NCBI GenBank assembly: GCA_903946925.1
Contig: CAJAXK010000315.1
Span: 1-39,916, forward strand
Direction: 5' to 3'
DNA from: an uncultured Bacteroidales bacterium
GTDB taxonomy: Bacteria; Bacteroidota; Bacteroidia; Bacteroidales; UBA4417
DNA length: 39,916 bases
Shown: positions 4,647-39,085 of the stretch, piece by piece
Numbering within the stretch: position 1 is the first letter of the stretch
How the letters are laid out: the number at the start of each line of letters is the position of its first letter
Notes under the pieces: generated by a model
Database searches by the model: none
Told to the model about the DNA's origin: nothing
Seen by the model: the letters and a program-made list of their open reading frames with translations, nothing else
Made by a program: the position numbers and the translations under genes

Positions 4647-5885
4647 TTAAGCAACTTTGAGCCTCGCCAAGTTGGTTTTGCCGAGTTTTGAGGTTGCATA
4701 TTCGCGATCAATTATCAGTTCCGAATGTTTGTTGTCGGAGGGTATATCGAACATGGCATCCGTGAGTATGGCTTCTAGTATTGAACGCAAACCACGTGCC
4801 CCGGTGCGGAATTCAATGGCTTTGTCAACAATGTATTCGTACACATCATCAGTAAAACTGAGCTTAACATTGTCCATTTCGAACAAACGCACAAATTGCT
4901 TAATTAGGGCATTTTGTGGTTCGGTAAGTATCCTAATCAACACTTCGCGGCTTAACGGATCCAAGTAGGTAACTACCGGAAAACGGCCAACAAGCTCGGG
5001 TATCAGCCCAAAACTCTTTAAATCCTGTGGCGCAACATATTGCAGGAGGTTATGCCTGTCAATCAAATCACGTTCACGATCGTTGGAGTAGCCAATGGTA
5101 TTTGTTTGCATGCGGGCGGCAATTTTCTTGTCGATGCCATCGAATGCACCTCCCGAAATGAAAAGTATGTTCCTGGTATTCACCAAAATCATTTTTTGTT
5201 CAGGATGCTTGCGGCCGCCTTGCGGAGGTACATTAACATCTGCGCCTTCGAGCAATTTGAGCAAAGCCTGTTGAACCCCTTCGCCCGAAACATCTCGGGT
5301 AATGGAAGGGTTATCGCTTTTGCGCGAAATTTTATCAATTTCGTCAATAAAAACAATGCCTTTCTCGGCGGCAGGCACATCAAAATCGGCGGCTTGCAAC
5401 AAACGGCTTAAAATGCTTTCAACATCCTCGCCAACGTAGCCTGCTTCAGTCAATACAGTAGCATCGGCAATACAAAAAGGAACCTGTAGCAACTTCGCAA
5501 TTGTGCGGGCCAGCAAAGTTTTGCCCGTTCCGGTTTCACCAACCAAAATAATGTTGGATTTGTCAATTTCAACTTCGTCTTTATTTTTTGAAACAGGTTG
5601 GTTTATACGCTTGAAATGGTTGTAAACAGCAACGGCCAATACGCGTTTCGAGTCATCCTGCCCAATCACGAATTTATCAAGGTACGCTTTAATTTCCTGT
5701 GGTTTTGGAACTTTTAGCGCTGTGTTTAAGCTTTTTTGTTTCGAATGGGTATTTTCCTCGCGTAGTATATCCCTTGCCTGGTCAATGCAGTAATCGCAAA
5801 TATGTGCCTCAATGCCAGCAATCAACATATTGGCTTCCCGCCTTGGTCGTCCACAAAAGGAACAGTGCTCTTCTTTTTTTGCCAT
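4647..5885 (-). CDS. clpX: ATP-dependent Clp protease, ATP-binding subunit ClpX
   Basis: A 412-residue AAA+ unfoldase that feeds substrates to ClpP. The N-terminal zinc-binding domain has C8, C11, C30 and C33 (CSFC and CDYC). The AAA+ core shows Walker A GETGTGKT, the pore loop GYVGEDVE, Walker B VFIDEID and the sensor region LVGRFPVV. The ClpP-docking tripeptide appears as IGY (in NTIGYSN) rather than the textbook IGF. Length is normal for the family. It follows tig and clpP on the same strand, but 219 bases separate it from clpP, and that gap holds an intrinsic terminator. ClpX therefore probably has its own promoter or depends on read-through. Confidence 0.97.
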
Positions 5886-5986
5886 AAAATTCGTTACTTT
5901 TTACAGGTTTTTAATCTGCAGATAAGATAATTTTAAACCGAAACCCAAGGCTAAACCCGCATTGGAAAGCTTTTTGTTTTGAATTT

Positions 5987-30153: not shown

Positions 30154-30398
30154 TGAGTCCGCTTCGCTAACCCTAAAAAAGAAAAAACCACGGAGCGATG
30201 TGCTGAGTGCCACACAGAGCATTGTTAATCAGTGCTATAAACTTAGTGAACTTAGCTAAGCGGCATCACAAACACCTAAAGAATAAAAATTCAGAGTAAA
30301 CTTAGAGGTTTTGGGCCACTTCGGAAGGCATTTCGGCAGGCTCATTGTATCACTCATTGTAACACTTTGTGGCGAAAAAACATGTTGGAATGGACCCA
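30154..30398. mobile_element. Diverged inverted copy of the TIR element
   Basis: Starting TGAGTCC (30154-30160) and ending GGAATGGACCCA, this stretch aligns along most of its length with the reverse complement of 8414-8616. Shared blocks include ACCCTAAAAAA, AACCACGGAG, TTGTTAATCAG, CTATAAACTT and GTGGCGAAAAAA. It carries about 45-50 extra bases near 30313-30361, with TCATTGTA repeated twice. The terminal repeats have decayed. Its right end once looked like the start of the following reading frame (30367), which is artefactual. Confidence 0.75.
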
Positions 30399-30543
30399 AG
30401 TTTCAAGCTATTGGAAGTTTGGTATTGGCTTTACTTTCAAAGGCCAAATTATGTATCTCACTGAACGGTTTACTCCATTCACCGGATTCTTCTTATTTTT
30501 CCTGTTCAGCCTTTGTAGTATTGCAAAAAAAATCAAATTAACC
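30399..30543. other. Upstream region of the DUF116 gene
   Basis: About 145 bases between the diverged element and the chosen ATG at 30544. It can be read in frame with the gene, giving a hydrophobic stretch (TGFFLFFLFSLC), but a near-consensus -7 box (TAGTATTG at about 30516) suggests it is promoter DNA. No strong -33 box was found. Confidence 0.4.
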
Positions 30544-31737
30544 ATGCCAAAAACCATCACCTATTCGTTAATGGATTTTCAGGAAGAATCTGGGCGTTTT
30601 TATAAAGAATTGGAGGAGTTTACAAATTCTTGGTTAAATGGTGTTGATTTGGAAGTGAACGGGATTATATCGGATTTCTGTGATTTTATCGGTAATAACA
30701 AAACTGAAAATTTACGTTCGCGGAATGAATACCTGGTTGAATTACTGATGATTGGCATGTATTGGAATAACTATTCCGGAAATGCAGTAAAAACAGGTCC
30801 TCTATCGAAAAAACTACTGAAATCGTTGTATAAACAGCGAACAAAATTCCCGAGATATAAACCCGAAATAGATAAAGCAAGAGGATTCATAGCGAATTTG
30901 TTTCTCGAAAAAAACAACAAAAATCGCTGTGGTACCCTAACTGTAAAAATGCTAATACACCTTTTGGACTGGCTTAGCGCAACCGGTGAGTTTAACGAAG
31001 AAGTACGCCGGCTCAAGAACTGGACAGCGTTTTTAAATACCAAAGATGCCGTTTATACAGGAGATCTCATCAAATCCTCTCTGCTTTTTGCTGAGCGTTT
31101 CTCGCTGAAAGGGATGGAAATGCTTGGCAAATACATGAAGAACCTCAGTGATTTTCACCAAAACTCATTGCCGGCTTATAAATACAGGGAAGACTATTTT
31201 TTTGCCAGCCGCCGCGAAAATGAATATTACCTTAACATGTTTGCCGCCGAAGTTATAAACCGTGGATTGCAGAAAGGATTTACGGAATCAACAAAAAAAG
31301 TGCTACTGCTTCCAACTTGTATGCGTAAAGAACCGGCAAGCGGATGCAAAGCTAAATCCGACGGGCATGAACCTGTATGCGCTTCCTGTTCAAGCGAATG
31401 TAATATCGGAAAAGTATCATCCGAAATGAAGAAGGAAGGAATAACTTCCTACCTGATTCCACATTCGTCAGAGTTTTCAAAATTCCTTGTAAAATGGAAG
31501 GATTGCCCCGATACCAGCCTGATTGGCGTGGCCTGTGTGCTGAACCTAATTACCGGCGGATACGAAATGAAAAGGCTGGGAATTTCCTCCCAATGTGTTT
31601 TCCTCGATTACTGCGGCTGTAAAAAGCACTGGGATAAAGATGGAATTGCTACTTCGCTGAATATTACCCAACTAAAAAACATAGTTCAGGAACGGGATGT
31701 AAGTTCAAAAAAAGCAACACTGGTTTTAGCCGACTGA
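30544..31737 (+). CDS. DUF116 family cysteine-rich protein
   Basis: A 397-residue protein. The N-terminal half is helical, starting MPKTITYSLMDFQEESGRFY. The C-terminal half is the DUF116 domain, with ten cysteines in about 120 residues: LPTCMR, SGCKA, VCASCSSECNIG, DCPD, VACVLNL, SSQCVFLDYCGCKKHW. This suggests an iron-sulfur or other metal site. Family function is unknown. A longer start at 30367 would include TIR-element sequence, so ATG 30544 is used; a hydrophobic N-terminal extension cannot be wholly excluded. It is followed closely by the methyltransferase-like gene (29-base gap) and an exported protein gene, so all three are likely one operon. Confidence 0.78.
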   Translation: MPKTITYSLMDFQEESGRFYKELEEFTNSWLNGVDLEVNGIISDFCDFIGNNKTENLRSRNEYLVELLMIGMYWNNYSGNAVKTGPLSKKLLKSLYKQRTKFPRYKPEIDKARGFIANLFLEKNNKNRCGTLTVKMLIHLLDWLSATGEFNEEVRRLKNWTAFLNTKDAVYTGDLIKSSLLFAERFSLKGMEMLGKYMKNLSDFHQNSLPAYKYREDYFFASRRENEYYLNMFAAEVINRGLQKGFTESTKKVLLLPTCMRKEPASGCKAKSDGHEPVCASCSSECNIGKVSSEMKKEGITSYLIPHSSEFSKFLVKWKDCPDTSLIGVACVLNLITGGYEMKRLGISSQCVFLDYCGCKKHWDKDGIATSLNITQLKNIVQERDVSSKKATLVLAD

Positions 31738-32249: not shown

Positions 32250-32276
32250 TTTTTGTTTATCTACAACCTCAATCAA

Positions 32277-32900
32277 ATGAAACGGTTTCCCGCGCTTTTG
32301 CCTGTCTTTCTGCTTTTAGCTTGCAATCTGTACTCGCAAAACACTGAATACGAATACCTTTTAAATAAAAACCAGTTTAAAAAGGCTACAAAAGGTGTAA
32401 AGTTATACTGTGGATTAACCCACCAGCATCAGAGTTTTTTCAACAAACCTTTTTCGCTTACAGGCATCGAAGCCGGGATAATTTCAGGACGTAATATTCT
32501 GCTGGGAGTTTATGGTTCCTCATTTTTATCCAACCTGGAAATTGAAAATTCAGTCTCCAAAACGTATTTTTCTTCAATGCAAGGCGGCCTTGCTATCGGA
32601 GTCCTGCATCACGGGAACAAATGGCTCCATGAAGGCGTACTTTTAAATGCGGGATATTTTTCGATAACAGGAAGTTCTTCTAATTTTCAATTATTTGCTA
32701 TTCAAAACTCAACAGCCATTATTCATGGTTTGGTGATTACACCCATGGCTTTCGCTGAAATAAATGTACTGAGATGGATGAAGTTCAGGACAGGACTTGG
32801 CTATAGTTTTTATAATTTCAAAGATCAGTCCTCAGTATCAGTGAGCGATTTGCAGAACGTGTCGATAAATTTTGGGTTCCTTTTTGGGAAATATTTATAA
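32277..32900 (+). CDS. Exported beta-rich protein, possible outer-membrane barrel
   Basis: A 207-residue protein with an N-terminal signal (MKRFPALLPVFLLLACNLYSQ). LLAC could be a lipobox, but cleavage after YSQ is equally likely. The mature part has alternating beta-like stretches (GVKLYCGLTHQH, SLTGIEAGIISGRNILLGVYG, FRTGLGYSFYNF) and ends VSINFGFLFGKYL, typical of small outer-membrane barrels. I cannot assign a family. ATG 32277 is chosen over an in-frame start 24 bases earlier because it begins the signal peptide. It is third in the DUF116 cluster. Confidence 0.72.
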   Translation: MKRFPALLPVFLLLACNLYSQNTEYEYLLNKNQFKKATKGVKLYCGLTHQHQSFFNKPFSLTGIEAGIISGRNILLGVYGSSFLSNLEIENSVSKTYFSSMQGGLAIGVLHHGNKWLHEGVLLNAGYFSITGSSSNFQLFAIQNSTAIIHGLVITPMAFAEINVLRWMKFRTGLGYSFYNFKDQSSVSVSDLQNVSINFGFLFGKYL

Positions 32901-33062: not shown

Positions 33063-33165
33063 TGATTCATTTAGCGAAAGGTAAAAAACTACTGTTAGAA
33101 GCTTTTATACGAGTGCATTGATTCAGAAAAAATACATAAATTGGCAGTTCAAAAATCTTTTTAAA

Positions 33166-36100
33166 ATGACATTCAACGAACTGAACAGAATAAACGGCGA
33201 AAGCGCATTCAGGGAGTCGCGTTTGAGCCGGTTAAAGAGCATTTTATTATTGCTTAGCTTAGGTGGTTTAGTAATTGTGCTTTTATGGCAATTGTTCGAC
33301 AAATACTATTTAAACGAATCGGATAGCACCTTGTTTTGGCTATGTACAGTTACAGTGAGTGTGTATGTTTTGAATTTTTTGATCGCATTGGTGCGGAATT
33401 CAAATCAGGCTTACAAGCAGCACCTTACCGCTGGCTTCTATTTTGGTACAGTTTTCTGCACTTTGCTGGCCATGTTTACCGGGGCAAGCCAAAGCCCTTA
33501 CTGGTTCGGACTGTTTTTTATCTTTATCGCCTGGTTTGTACTTGTACCGTTTACATACCGCGAATTGATCTCGCATGGTTTCATGTTTTTCATCCTTTTT
33601 ATGGCTGGGTTGTTTATACAAACCGAATTTAAACTTATTGATTATGAGATAGCTAAAATTATTTTCCTTTATTCCGGGACGCTGTTTATTGGGTTTTATG
33701 CAGCCTTCAGCCGTAACCAGGGCGAAGCGGAAAGCTACCTGCTCACCGAAGCTTTAAGGGTGAAAAACAAGGATTTGAATAAATACCTGAAAGTTTTGGA
33801 GCAGGCTCCGGGCTCGGTTATAATTATGGATACCAAAATGAATTTTGAGTATATCAATCCTATGTTTACACAACTTTCGGGATATACCGAAGAGGATCTG
33901 CTCCATAAAAATATTAACGACACCATTTACAAAGGAAAAGCACCCGAATCGCGAACTGGTGTGATTCAAACCCTGGCCAAAGGCGAAAAATGGCAAGGCG
34001 AATTGCTTACCTATCATAAAACGGGCACTCCATACTGGGCCAATACTATTGCGGCACCCTACAAGGATGAGCAAGGCCAGGTGGAAGGATATATAGTTAT
34101 ACAGCAGGATATCAGCGAACATAAAAAGATGGAGATTGCTCTCAGGGAAAGCGAAGAACTCTACCGGACACTTATCGAGAAATCGCTTGACGGAGTTGCA
34201 CTGACCGTAAGCCGTAAGTTTTACCTGTTCAACAAGGCTTTTTGTGAAATACTTGGCTATTCGGAAGAAGAACTACTTTCAATTGACCCAACTGAACTAC
34301 TGGCTCCCGATGACAGGGAAAGGGTTGTGGCATTGCATGATAAGCGCATGATTGGAGAAATGGGTTCATTACACTACACTGCAAAATTTATCCATAAATC
34401 GGGTAAGCTGCTTATGGTTGAATTGAATACTACCACAGTTCAGGTTAATGGGCAGAATGCCTCTTTTGTAACCCTGCGCGATATCACTGACCAGCATGCG
34501 ATGAAAAATGCACTGGAATTAAGTATGCAAAAATACCATGATCTTGCTGATTTGCTTCCGCAAACGGTTTATGAGCTTGACATGCAAGGTAAAATTGTAT
34601 TTATGAATCAGGCAGGGATTAATGCTTTTGGGAAAGTACTGCCTCAAAATGATTTATTTGCTCTCGATTTTGTAGCTCCTGAGGACCATCAGCGATTAAT
34701 GCAAAATATGCAAGCAAGCTACCGGGGCGTAAAACCTCCCTCAGATAGCGAATACACAGCACTGAGAGCTGATGGAAGCAGGTATCCGATAATGGTTTAC
34801 AGTTCTCCCGTTTTTACTGATGGTGTACTATCAGGAACCCGTGGAATTATTATAGATATTTCGGAAAGGAAAGAAATTGAAAATGCACTTCGCGAGAGTG
34901 AATCAAAATATAAAACCCTGGTTGAAAACTCAAAGGACGGAATCCTCATAATCAGAGATAACAAAGTGCTTTTTGCAAATAATACAATTTCAAAACTGCT
35001 CGGCTACCCACTTGATGAGTTTTACCAGATGTCGTCCGTCAATTTACTCCATCCTGACGACAGGTACAAGGCCGCGCTGATTGCTCAGAAGCGTAAAAGC
35101 CAGGACTTTTCAACTATCAATGAAGAGTTTCGTATGGTTACAAGGAACGGTGAGGTGAAAGAATGCGAAACATCCTCCACCTTAATTGAATTCGATGGAC
35201 AATGGGCAAGTTTCTTCACCATTCAGGATATTACCGAAAGCCGGCGCATGCAAACTGAACTGAAGGAAAATGAAGAGAAATACCGGCAATTGTTTGTAGC
35301 CGAATCGGATGCAATTTTTATGATTGATGCCGATACCGGTGAAATTTTGGATGCAAATCCTGCCACATCCTCGATATACGGTTATTCTCATATTGAGTTG
35401 CTCACCATGAAAAATACAGACATATCGGCTGAACCTGAAAAAACGAGTGAAGCTACGCATTTGCATCTCAGCCTGGTGCCGATACGATACCATAAAAAGA
35501 AAGACGGAACCGTTTTCCCTGTTGAGCTTAGTGCCGGATTTACAACAATGGGCAACCGGAATATTCAGATTGTTACCTCGCGCGATATTACCGAACGCAT
35601 TCGCATACAGGAAGCTTTGAGTAATAGTGAACAAAAATACCGGGAACTCACCGAAATGCTACCCCAGGCAATTTATGAGCTTGATGCACAAGGAAATCCC
35701 AAATATATGAACAAAGCCGGATTGAAAATATTTGGCATCGAAAACCGCACCGGTGATAAAAAAGCTTTTGAATTTTTTATCCCTGAGGATATGCAACGCA
35801 TGAAACAAGCCTTGAAAACGGAAGCAGCCAGAATGGTTGACGAAGAGGGGGTGAAGGAACCTGTGCCTTCCGAACCGGTGGAATATACTGCACAACGGAC
35901 CGATGGAAGTAAATTCCCGGTTTTAATCTATGGAACTTCCATTGTCGAAAATGGAGAAGTAACAGGATCGCGGGGAATGATCATCGATATTTCCGAACGC
36001 AAAGCAATGGAAAACGCTATCCGCGAAAGCGAAGAGAAATATAAAACCCTGATTGAAAATTCGCAGGATGGTATATTTGCCATAGTTGGCGACAAAGTGC

Positions 36101-37446
36101 AGTTTGTAAACAATACTTTTTGTAAAATGTTGGGCTATACCGCTCAGGAGATTTACGATATGCCTGCAATCAGTCTGGTGGTGCCCGACGACCGACAGCG
36201 AGGAAATGAAATAAGCCAACGGAGGAAAAATGGCGACTGGTCAACAGTAAATGGCATTTTTCACTTCCTTACAAAAGATGGCTCGGTTAGGGAATGCGAC
36301 ACTTTTTCATCGGTGCTGGAACTGAACGGACAGATTGTGAGCTACTTAACCGTTCATGACCTTACCGAAAACCGACGAATGCAGGAGCAGTTGCAACTAA
36401 GCGAGGAAAAATACCGAACCGTTATCGAAAAAGCTACCGATGGAATTGTGATAACGCAGCAAGGCAAGCTCAAGTTTATGAATAGGTCGATGATTGATAT
36501 GTTGCAATATGATGAAAACGAAATCATCGACAAGCCCTTTATTAATTTTGTTGTTGAAGACGAGAAGCAGGTGATGATTGATTTTCATAAACGCCGTATG
36601 GCAGGCGAGGACTTTTCGTCGCTGTACCGCAGCCGCTTAATCCGCAAGGATGGAAAAATAATTGCCGTGGAGTTAAACGCCCGGACCTCCAACTACAATG
36701 AGGAACCGGCCGCCTTTATTATTATCCGCGATATTTCGGACAGGGTAAAAATTGAAAATGAATTACAAACAGCAAAAAGTAACCTCGAAATGCTGAATCG
36801 CGATCTTGAACAGCGGGTAATTGAAAGTTCCGAAAGCCTTACCGAGGCGCGTACTCAACTGATAAACCTGCAAAAGGAAAACCTGCAGTCACAGTTCGAT
36901 GTGCTCAAACAACAAGTGAATCCGCACTTCCTGTTTAACAGCCTTAACGTTCTCACCTCGTTGATTAAGCTCGAACCCGATTTGGCCGAGAAGTTTTCGG
37001 AACACCTGTCGAAGGTATACAGGTATGTTTTAGAAAATAAGGATAATGAACTCGTCGATCTGAATACCGAGCTGAACTTCCTTGATGCCTACATTTTCCT
37101 GCTTAACATCAGGTTTGTAAATAAACTGCACGTTAACATTGATATCCCGCAGTCGAAACGAAGTTGCCAGGTTATTCCCCTGGCCATGCAACTTTTGATT
37201 GAGAATGCTATCAAGCACAATATAATGTCGAAATCAAACCCTTTGAAGATTGATGTTTTTATTGACAAAAATAATTTCCTGAACATTGTGAATAACCTGC
37301 AGGAAAGGCCGTCGCAAATAATTTCGACAGGAGTGGGACTGAAAAATATCCAGAACCGCTACCTGTTGTTAAACAATACCGAACCTGTGTTTGAAAAAAC
37401 AGAAACACATTTTATTGCTAAAGTACCCCTGATACTAATTGATTAA
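33166..37446 (+). CDS. LytS-type sensor histidine kinase with eight PAS domains
   Basis: A 1426-residue sensor. About six membrane segments (about 20-185) precede eight successive PAS domains starting near residues 205, 330, 455, 581, 704, 823, 957 and 1081. Most are joined by a PAC-to-PAS link such as RESEELYRTLIEKS. A short coiled-coil (about 1205-1245) leads into the His_kinase (LytS/YehU-type) domain with H1254 in VNPHFLFNSLN, the ATP-site asparagine region LLIENAIKHN and the GVGLKNIQNR box. PAS 3 and 6 (both LPQ..YELD), and PAS 4 and 7, are near copies, pointing to internal duplication. ATG 33166 is preferred to the TTG at 33118. Its partner regulators follow directly. The ligand is unknown. 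Confidence 0.92.
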   Translation: MTFNELNRINGESAFRESRLSRLKSILLLLSLGGLVIVLLWQLFDKYYLNESDSTLFWLCTVTVSVYVLNFLIALVRNSNQAYKQHLTAGFYFGTVFCTLLAMFTGASQSPYWFGLFFIFIAWFVLVPFTYRELISHGFMFFILFMAGLFIQTEFKLIDYEIAKIIFLYSGTLFIGFYAAFSRNQGEAESYLLTEALRVKNKDLNKYLKVLEQAPGSVIIMDTKMNFEYINPMFTQLSGYTEEDLLHKNINDTIYKGKAPESRTGVIQTLAKGEKWQGELLTYHKTGTPYWANTIAAPYKDEQGQVEGYIVIQQDISEHKKMEIALRESEELYRTLIEKSLDGVALTVSRKFYLFNKAFCEILGYSEEELLSIDPTELLAPDDRERVVALHDKRMIGEMGSLHYTAKFIHKSGKLLMVELNTTTVQVNGQNASFVTLRDITDQHAMKNALELSMQKYHDLADLLPQTVYELDMQGKIVFMNQAGINAFGKVLPQNDLFALDFVAPEDHQRLMQNMQASYRGVKPPSDSEYTALRADGSRYPIMVYSSPVFTDGVLSGTRGIIIDISERKEIENALRESESKYKTLVENSKDGILIIRDNKVLFANNTISKLLGYPLDEFYQMSSVNLLHPDDRYKAALIAQKRKSQDFSTINEEFRMVTRNGEVKECETSSTLIEFDGQWASFFTIQDITESRRMQTELKENEEKYRQLFVAESDAIFMIDADTGEILDANPATSSIYGYSHIELLTMKNTDISAEPEKTSEATHLHLSLVPIRYHKKKDGTVFPVELSAGFTTMGNRNIQIVTSRDITERIRIQEALSNSEQKYRELTEMLPQAIYELDAQGNPKYMNKAGLKIFGIENRTGDKKAFEFFIPEDMQRMKQALKTEAARMVDEEGVKEPVPSEPVEYTAQRTDGSKFPVLIYGTSIVENGEVTGSRGMIIDISERKAMENAIRESEEKYKTLIENSQDGIFAIVGDKVQFVNNTFCKMLGYTAQEIYDMPAISLVVPDDRQRGNEISQRRKNGDWSTVNGIFHFLTKDGSVRECDTFSSVLELNGQIVSYLTVHDLTENRRMQEQLQLSEEKYRTVIEKATDGIVITQQGKLKFMNRSMIDMLQYDENEIIDKPFINFVVEDEKQVMIDFHKRRMAGEDFSSLYRSRLIRKDGKIIAVELNARTSNYNEEPAAFIIIRDISDRVKIENELQTAKSNLEMLNRDLEQRVIESSESLTEARTQLINLQKENLQSQFDVLKQQVNPHFLFNSLNVLTSLIKLEPDLAEKFSEHLSKVYRYVLENKDNELVDLNTELNFLDAYIFLLNIRFVNKLHVNIDIPQSKRSCQVIPLAMQLLIENAIKHNIMSKSNPLKIDVFIDKNNFLNIVNNLQERPSQIISTGVGLKNIQNRYLLLNNTEPVFEKTETHFIAKVPLILID

Positions 37447-37457
37447 AATCTATTGAA

Positions 37458-37874
37458 ATGAGAATTGTAATTATTGAAGACGAAATGTTTGCCGCCCGCA
37501 GGCTTGAGAATATGATCAGGGAGTTTGACCCCCGGATTGTTGTTGCGGCAAAGCTTGAATCGGTTACTGAATCAATAGCCTGGTTTAAAGCAAATGAGGA
37601 GCCTGACCTGATTTTCCTCGATATCCACCTAGAAGACGACCTGAGTTTCGCCATCTTCAAGGAAGTGCCTATTTGTTGTTCCATTGTGTTCACCACAGCT
37701 ACCGACGAACTGGCGGCACGTGCTTTTCACCTGAAAGGAATTGATTACCTGTTGAAACCAATCATACAGACTGATTTGTTTACCATGCTCAATAAATACA
37801 AAAACCAGCCTAAATCACTTTGTCCGGTAAATGCAGATATTTTTAACGAAATAATCAATCCTGTAAAATCATGA
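37458..37874 (+). CDS. Receiver-only response regulator, LytTR-regulator paralogue
   Basis: A 138-residue CheY-like receiver with the acidic pocket E7/D8, phospho-acceptor D55 in LIFLDIHL, T79/T80 and K100 in YLLKP, so all key residues are there. It stops after about 20 further residues and has no LytTR DNA-binding domain. Compared with the next gene, roughly 70 of the first 115 residues are identical by eye, so it is a tandem duplicate that has lost its output domain. It starts 11 bases after the kinase and overlaps the next gene by ATGA. A phosphate sink or competitor for the kinase is plausible. Confidence 0.9.
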   Translation: MRIVIIEDEMFAARRLENMIREFDPRIVVAAKLESVTESIAWFKANEEPDLIFLDIHLEDDLSFAIFKEVPICCSIVFTTATDELAARAFHLKGIDYLLKPIIQTDLFTMLNKYKNQPKSLCPVNADIFNEIINPVKS

Positions 37875-38632
37875 AGACTATCATTATTGAAGATGAAGAC
37901 TTTGCTGCACGCCGCCTCGAAAACATGATCCGCGAATGCGACAGCTCCATCGAAATTGTTGCCAAACTCCAATCAGTAAAAGAATCGGTTGCCTGGTTAA
38001 CAACTAATCCACATCCTGAGTTGATATTCCTTGATATTCAGCTTGATGACGACCTGAGTTTCGCCATTTTCGAACAGGTTAAAGTTCAATCGCAGATCAT
38101 ATTTACCACAGCTTTCGATGAGTACGCCATTAAGGCATTCAAACTCAAAAGCATCGATTACCTGCTAAAACCCATCATCAAGGAAGAATTATGCTTCGCA
38201 ATAAAAAAATACAGGGAAATGGTAGTTCCGGCAAACCAATCTGTTGATCTGTCATCTCTTTTCGATCTTATAAACAGGAAAAATATTACCTACAAGGAAC
38301 GGTTTTCAATTACGGTTGGCCAGAAGATTAAAACCTTCACCATCCCCGAAATCGCCTATTTCTACTCCACCGAAGGGATTTCCTTTATGGTATTGAAAAA
38401 CAAATCGGAATACCCCGTGGACGATAGCCTCGAAGAACTTGCACAGCAACTCAATCCGAAGGATTTTTTCCGCATTAACCGCAAATACCTGGTTAAGATT
38501 GATTCCATTGCCAATGTTCACATTTTTCCGAAAAGCCATCTGAAACTTGAACTCTCGCCCTTGCCTAAAGAAGAGGTTTTTGTGAGTATTGATAAGGTAA
38601 CGGCATTTAAGAAATGGCTGGATAATAAATAG
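37871..38632 (+). CDS. LytTR-family response regulator (receiver plus LytTR DNA-binding domain)
   Basis: A 253-residue regulator of the AlgR/LytR type. The receiver (about 1-120) has E7/D8, D55 in LIFLDIQL and K100 in YLLKPII. A linker of about 20 residues is followed by a LytTR domain (about 145-250) with IKTFTIPEIAYFYS, LEELAQQLNPKDFFRINRKYLV and a final strand-helix. It is the probable output of the upstream LytS-type kinase, which fits the usual LytS/LytTR pairing. DNA targets are unknown. Translation overlaps the receiver-only gene by 4 bases. Confidence 0.93.
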   Translation: MKTIIIEDEDFAARRLENMIRECDSSIEIVAKLQSVKESVAWLTTNPHPELIFLDIQLDDDLSFAIFEQVKVQSQIIFTTAFDEYAIKAFKLKSIDYLLKPIIKEELCFAIKKYREMVVPANQSVDLSSLFDLINRKNITYKERFSITVGQKIKTFTIPEIAYFYSTEGISFMVLKNKSEYPVDDSLEELAQQLNPKDFFRINRKYLVKIDSIANVHIFPKSHLKLELSPLPKEEVFVSIDKVTAFKKWLDNK

Positions 38633-38734: not shown

Positions 38735-39085
38735 ATGAAACCTTCCCAAATACCTTTTCAGTTAATCGACTGGTCAATAGTTCCTAAAACTATGCACCCT
38801 GGAGAAAGTGGCATGGCTACATGGCAAACAATAGAATTTGAAGGACTCCGGATCCGTATTGTTGAATATCCTGCCGGTTACATTGCCGATCATTGGTGCC
38901 GCAAAGGGCATATTGTCCATTGCCTCGAAGGAGAGTTCATCAGCGAAATGGAGAATGGAGAAAACCATAAATTAACCAAAGGCATGACGTATGTGGTTTC
39001 GGATGAGCTGAGTTCACACCGTTCAGTTACAGAACAAGGCGTAAAGTTGCTGATTGTTGATGGTGATTTCCTGAAAACTGAGTAA
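38735..39085 (+). CDS. DHCW-motif cupin-fold protein
   Basis: A 116-residue single cupin domain. The stretch YIADHWCRKGHIVHCLEGEF contains the DHWC motif and the metal-binding-type histidines of a cupin, followed by GMTYVVSDELSSHRSV. This matches the small 'DHCW motif cupin' family, whose function is unknown. Its start is well placed after AAAAAATG with a purine-rich leader. The OsmC-like gene follows after 26 bases, so the two are likely co-transcribed. Confidence 0.85.
   Translation: MKPSQIPFQLIDWSIVPKTMHPGESGMATWQTIEFEGLRIRIVEYPAGYIADHWCRKGHIVHCLEGEFISEMENGENHKLTKGMTYVVSDELSSHRSVTEQGVKLLIVDGDFLKTE

Follow-up and report, generated by a model that had tools for sequence, protein, structure and literature searches.

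LytS/LytTR two-component systems such as BtsS/BtsR, YpdA/YpdB and LytS/LytR consist of a PF06580 kinase and a regulator with a receiver (REC) and a LytTR domain, encoded in one operon. A different arrangement, in which one kinase is paired with two receivers and one of these has no known output of its own, is described for Sinorhizobium meliloti chemotaxis and the yeast SLN1-YPD1-SSK1/SKN7 pathway (PMC4214558). Theory and reconstitution have established this sink motif of one histidine kinase and two response regulators as a device for setting a threshold and terminating a response quickly, with a sharper effect if the sink autodephosphorylates faster, and the same work cautions that the architecture by itself is no proof of a sink (PMC4214558). 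The locus described here, in a 39,916-nucleotide stretch of DNA from an uncultured Bacteroidales bacterium (contig CAJAXK010000315.1; hereafter the window), has features of both. A PF06580 kinase adjoins a REC-LytTR regulator, as in LytS/LytTR systems, but unlike those systems the locus has a gene for a receiver-only paralogue between the two, and its kinase contains many PAS domains. With the sink motif it shares the layout of one kinase and two receivers, one of them without a known output; however, the sinks of PMC4214558 belong to chemotaxis and yeast osmoregulation, whereas here the partner is a LytTR regulator, the receivers are paralogues within one operon, and sink kinetics are only predicted.

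The three genes form an operon-like run on the forward strand near the end of the window, in the order kinase, receiver-only regulator (R1), full regulator (R2). The sensor histidine kinase (coordinates 33118–37446) has a hydrophobic N-terminus, about eight stretches matching Pfam PAS families, and a C-terminal LytS-type His_kinase domain (PF06580, E 2e-21) with an NPHFLFN H-box; an ATG at 33166 is a likelier start than the TTG at 33118, as it aligns with the ATG of the kinase in a related locus, L040. R1 (37458–37874; 138 residues) begins after a spacing of 11 bases, and its stop codon overlaps the start of R2 (37871–38632; 253 residues) in an ATGA at 37871–37874, an overlap that is also present in L040 and suggests translational coupling. 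R2 matches Response_reg (E 7e-12) and LytTR (E 6e-16; residues 152–250, coordinates 38324–38620), and R1 matches Response_reg alone (E 9e-10; 39.1 bits against a gathering cut-off of 30.2). The open reading frames and Pfam assignments, together with the ATGA overlap, thus confirm the preliminary description of this DNA as encoding a full LytTR regulator in tandem with a receiver-only paralogue, and its estimate of about 60% identity over 115 residues agrees with the 61% that we find between the two receivers over 117 residues (residues 1–117). Directly 3′ of R2 lies a gene for a DHCW-motif cupin-fold protein (38735–39085; NCBIfam NF038084) that likewise follows R2 in L040, and in the closest relatives it is possibly part of the regulated unit. 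The two open reading frames 5′ of the kinase, of 456 residues (30367–31737) and 215 residues (32253–32900), have no NCBIfam match, and the shorter one has no Pfam match either.

R1 is an intact and conserved member of the receiver family (PF00072), a single-domain response regulator without an output domain. Its AlphaFold2 model has a receiver fold (pLDDT 86) that matches receiver structures, the closest solved one being the Staphylococcus aureus LytR receiver (6m8o). The residues E7, D8, D55 and K100 noted earlier are all present, as is T80, and these five are invariant in 18/18 R1 proteins, including the predicted phosphorylation site D55 (codon 37620–37622). The same 18 proteins are also uniform at the kinetic positions D+2, T+1, K+1 and K+2, T+1 being Ala throughout. 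With every key phosphorylation residue present, a pseudo-receiver was rejected, and R1 can probably be phosphorylated but not bind DNA, as judged from its residues and domain content. The proposal that R1 lost the DNA-binding domain holds for LytTR itself, but not everything beyond the receiver is gone: in the alignment the tail corresponds to the linker that joins REC and LytTR in R2, and R1 stops at about the expected start of LytTR. The retained segment (residues 126–133, coordinates 37833–37856) contains a Phe, F129, that is invariant among R1 proteins, and DSSP assigns a short linker helix to residues 126–133 of the R1 model and 127–134 of the R2 model, at low to moderate confidence in both.

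When 84,980 species genomes were scanned and the loci returned were annotated for domains, the kinase, receiver-only and REC-LytTR order recurred in about 20 Bacteroidales genomes, on the same strand wherever the locus is complete; the arrangement is thus no chance feature of the window. Complete triads are present in the window and in L038 (the same as the L009 locus), L039, L040, L041, L043–L049, L051, L054, L085 and L090; in L042 and L053 the contig with R1 stops short of one of the partners, and whole-genome searches supplied two further R1 genes (L121 and L122). Some loci have one extra gene between the kinase and R1. An apparent fused double receiver in L067 (4956–5648) was set aside as an assembly scaffolding artefact, a single R1 split by a run of Ns with a repeated edge. 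The arrangement had been called uncommon, and indeed R1 occurs in 5/295 genomes sampled evenly across the order, in 3/16 of a family and genus sample, where most congeners lack it, and only in the genome of the window in a phylum sample of 395 genomes. It is neither absent nor decayed in all close relatives, as the nearest one retains R1 at 91% identity. R1 is therefore real and old, yet rare.

The kinases of the triads are closely similar in their catalytic part (mean identity 0.77). In the window, L039, L043, L046, L049, L054 and L085, however, the sensor part varies in size and in its number of PAS stretches (616 to 1442 residues), which suggests that PAS domains are rapidly gained and lost. 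The six triad kinases examined besides that of the window all have PF06580 and several PAS domains (6/6).

All 18 R1 sequences fall into one clade (support 100/97), apart from all R2 and single regulators, in a tree of 129 receivers, although this tree is built on few columns and leaves its deep forks unresolved. This single supported clade indicates that R1 arose once rather than repeatedly from the neighbouring gene; recent duplication and repeated independent truncation were both rejected, since the R1 proteins group together and not each with its own R2. Few pairs are free of saturation at synonymous sites; in these the dN/dS of R1 is 0.049 (window and L038), 0.054 (window and L040), 0.068 (L042 and L044) and 0.170 (L038 and L040), values that point to purifying selection. 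A decaying copy was rejected on this basis and on that of the old single clade with its invariant active site. Averaged over pairs of loci, sequence identity is highest in the catalytic part of the kinase (0.77) and the R2 receiver (0.74), followed by R1 (0.67) and LytTR (0.61). The distance matrices of R1, R2 and the kinase catalytic part are correlated (Mantel r 0.63–0.80, p 0.0002; r 0.72 for R1 and kinase), as expected for genes that are inherited together.

A tree of the kinase catalytic region joined to the full regulator, built by a quick method, contains a 22-row clade (SH-aLRT 97) of 7 kinase-regulator pairs lacking R1 and 15 triads, which are all the usable ones. Mapping presence and absence of R1 on this clade requires five changes, at least three of them forced by well-supported branches. 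As R1 forms a single clade, the most economical history would be one gain and then three or more clean losses that left the rest of the kinase-R2 operon intact, with the putative losses in L011, L055/L062, L058/L071, L065 and L079. Whole-genome searches of the seven genomes with such pairs, all draft assemblies, returned long REC-LytTR matches and no receiver-only copy elsewhere. The gap between kinase and regulator is 17 bases in L011 and 21 bases in L079; in L058 and L071 it holds no R1 remnant and is occupied by a complete metallo-beta-lactamase gene. The seven loci inside the triad clade that have kinase and R2 without R1, again in draft assemblies, led us to reject an obligatory Spo0F-like relay intermediate, and the persistence of kinase and R2 in them argues that R1 is accessory and tunes rather than relays.

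In L048, too, a complete gene (5249–5983) separates the PAS kinase from the LytTR regulator(s), with similar genes at the same position in L047, L058 and L071, and its product matches the NCBIfam subclass B1 metallo-beta-lactamase model (262 bits against a cut-off of 200). A beta-lactamase-like gene is unexpected within a two-component operon of environmental Bacteroidales metagenome-assembled genomes.

In a comparison with 111 DNA-binding paralogues, R1 stands apart at very few positions, namely residue 77 (Val in R1, Ile in paralogues), T+2, T+5 and residue 94. At T+2 (residue 82; codon 37701–37703), which adjoins the phosphorylation pocket, Thr is present in 18/18 R1 proteins, and in 20/20 of the enlarged set, as against Phe or Tyr in 110/111 paralogues; no other change close to the active site is wholly specific to the clade. 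T+5 is Leu, Met or Lys in the 18 R1 proteins and Tyr or Phe in the 111 paralogues, but as a strict R1 signature it is weakened by L122, in which R1 retains Tyr. K-3 is Phe in half of the R1 proteins and Tyr in 111/111 paralogues. Published work shows that T+2 influences phosphoryl-group kinetics and the coupling of the active site to output; hydrophilic residues at D+2/T+2 are predicted to enhance dephosphorylation (PMC8510515), and T+2 is also involved in Y-T allosteric coupling (PMC12632262). With the residues of the chemistry kept and T+2 changed, the R1 lineage has therefore altered the position at which chemistry is coupled to lifetime and output. Because of the second role of T+2, the Thr may reflect altered output instead of altered kinetics.

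The reading that we favour, and hold about equally likely to be right or wrong, is that R1 is a phosphate sink or a competitor that tunes the LytS/LytTR system, as predicted from the sequence and layout of these loci. The adjacent LytS-type kinase would phosphorylate both R1 and R2, and phosphorylated R2 would act on DNA through its LytTR domain. Phosphorylated R1, having no DNA-binding domain, would drain phosphoryl groups or compete for the kinase, and would presumably lose its phosphoryl group faster; the consequence for R2 would be a higher activation threshold and a quicker shut-off. The ATGA overlap would hold the two proteins at similar amounts. We favour this because one kinase precedes both receivers, the phosphorylation residues are conserved and no output domain is present, and also because several lineages do without R1 and the T+2 change falls at a position that affects phosphoryl-group kinetics. 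The sink or tuner role suggested in the preliminary description thus fits this evidence, although the sink function itself is something that we infer. Besides the second role of T+2, two points count against it. Residue matching between R1 and its own R2 in excess of expectation, compared by segment, gives no signal (mean excess 0.007), including alpha1, the expected kinase-docking helix (0.02), although this comparison is of little informative value, and a pure sink has no need of the retained linker segment. The kinetics proposed for R1 are moreover extrapolated, as the published sinks do not involve LytTR regulators. Alignments of four loci contain no clear repeat that would represent a conserved LytTR operator, either 5′ of the kinase or after R2.

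The retained linker also bears on an unlikely alternative, in which phosphorylated R1 and R2 would associate, by way of either the dimer face of the receivers or the linker helix, into a heterodimer with one LytTR domain, either dominant-negative or with a different site preference. The roughly 61% identity of the receivers, the linker segment with its invariant F129, and an overlap that favours production of R1 and R2 together are all consistent with this. However, R1 deviates at T+2, usually at T+5, in half of the proteins at K-3, and at residue 94, positions in and around an alpha4-beta5 face that is near-invariant in the paralogues, and at this face there is no co-variation of R1 and R2 above background. 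An improbable extension of this idea is a regulated heterodimer of phosphorylated R1 and R2 with a single LytTR domain, in which phosphorylation would determine how many DNA binders are one-armed relative to two-armed ones; the searchable literature yielded no precedent for such dose control of LytTR regulators.

It is also rather unlikely that R1 is a CheY-like messenger whose phosphorylated form binds a separate protein, such that the kinase would drive transcriptional and non-transcriptional outputs together. Many single-domain regulators act through protein targets (e.g. the exopolysaccharide activator of PMC12802240), and the altered alpha4 region, which purifying selection maintains, could serve as the surface for such a target, but the triad has no constant partner gene beside it, the neighbours varying between loci, and R1 has been lost repeatedly while kinase and R2 remain.

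Direct allosteric inhibition of the kinase, with R1 occupying it rather than draining phosphate, is quite unlikely as well. A response-regulator-like protein inhibits CckA directly (PMC9430884) and non-cognate regulators sequester kinases and so set a threshold (PMC10368727), but a pure inhibitor needs no full set of phosphorylation residues, and all are invariant in 18/18 R1 proteins. The data weigh modestly against the heterodimer, separate-target and kinase-inhibitor readings. That R1 is a functionless leftover of a tandem duplication is very improbable: it is missing from most congeners, with several losses, but dN/dS is about 0.05 with near-saturated synonymous sites, the clade is old with an invariant active site, R1 is better conserved across loci than LytTR (0.67 against 0.61), and no frameshifts or stops were seen in R1 of close relatives.

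Receiver-only proteins are common, and the role of each can rarely be predicted from sequence. The loci described here provide a natural series of about 20 operons with R1, seven close relatives without it and a single-residue signature at T+2, which permits a direct test of whether single-domain regulators evolve into phosphate sinks through a shorter phosphoryl lifetime. If R1 is a sink, the sink or threshold motif, best known from chemotaxis, would extend to LytTR transcriptional control in the Bacteroidales.

A literature search, with most subscription journals outside its reach, found no published description of a receiver-only LytTR partner, and two systems provide the nearest comparisons. 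BlpS, encoded beside BlpR/BlpH in Streptococcus gallolyticus (PMC8545106), is like R1 a shortened paralogue of a LytTR regulator within an intact kinase-regulator operon, but is its mirror image: BlpS consists of LytTR only, competes for DNA and antagonises BlpR, whereas R1 is receiver-only and could compete for phosphate or for the kinase. MrrA (PMC5964349) is, as R1, a stand-alone phosphorylatable receiver without an output domain; R1 differs in its descent from the LytTR-regulator lineage, its place in an operon with its own paralogue and its Thr signature at T+2. The motif of one kinase and two regulators is thus known, and what is new is its variant with a receiver-only paralogue in a LytTR operon.
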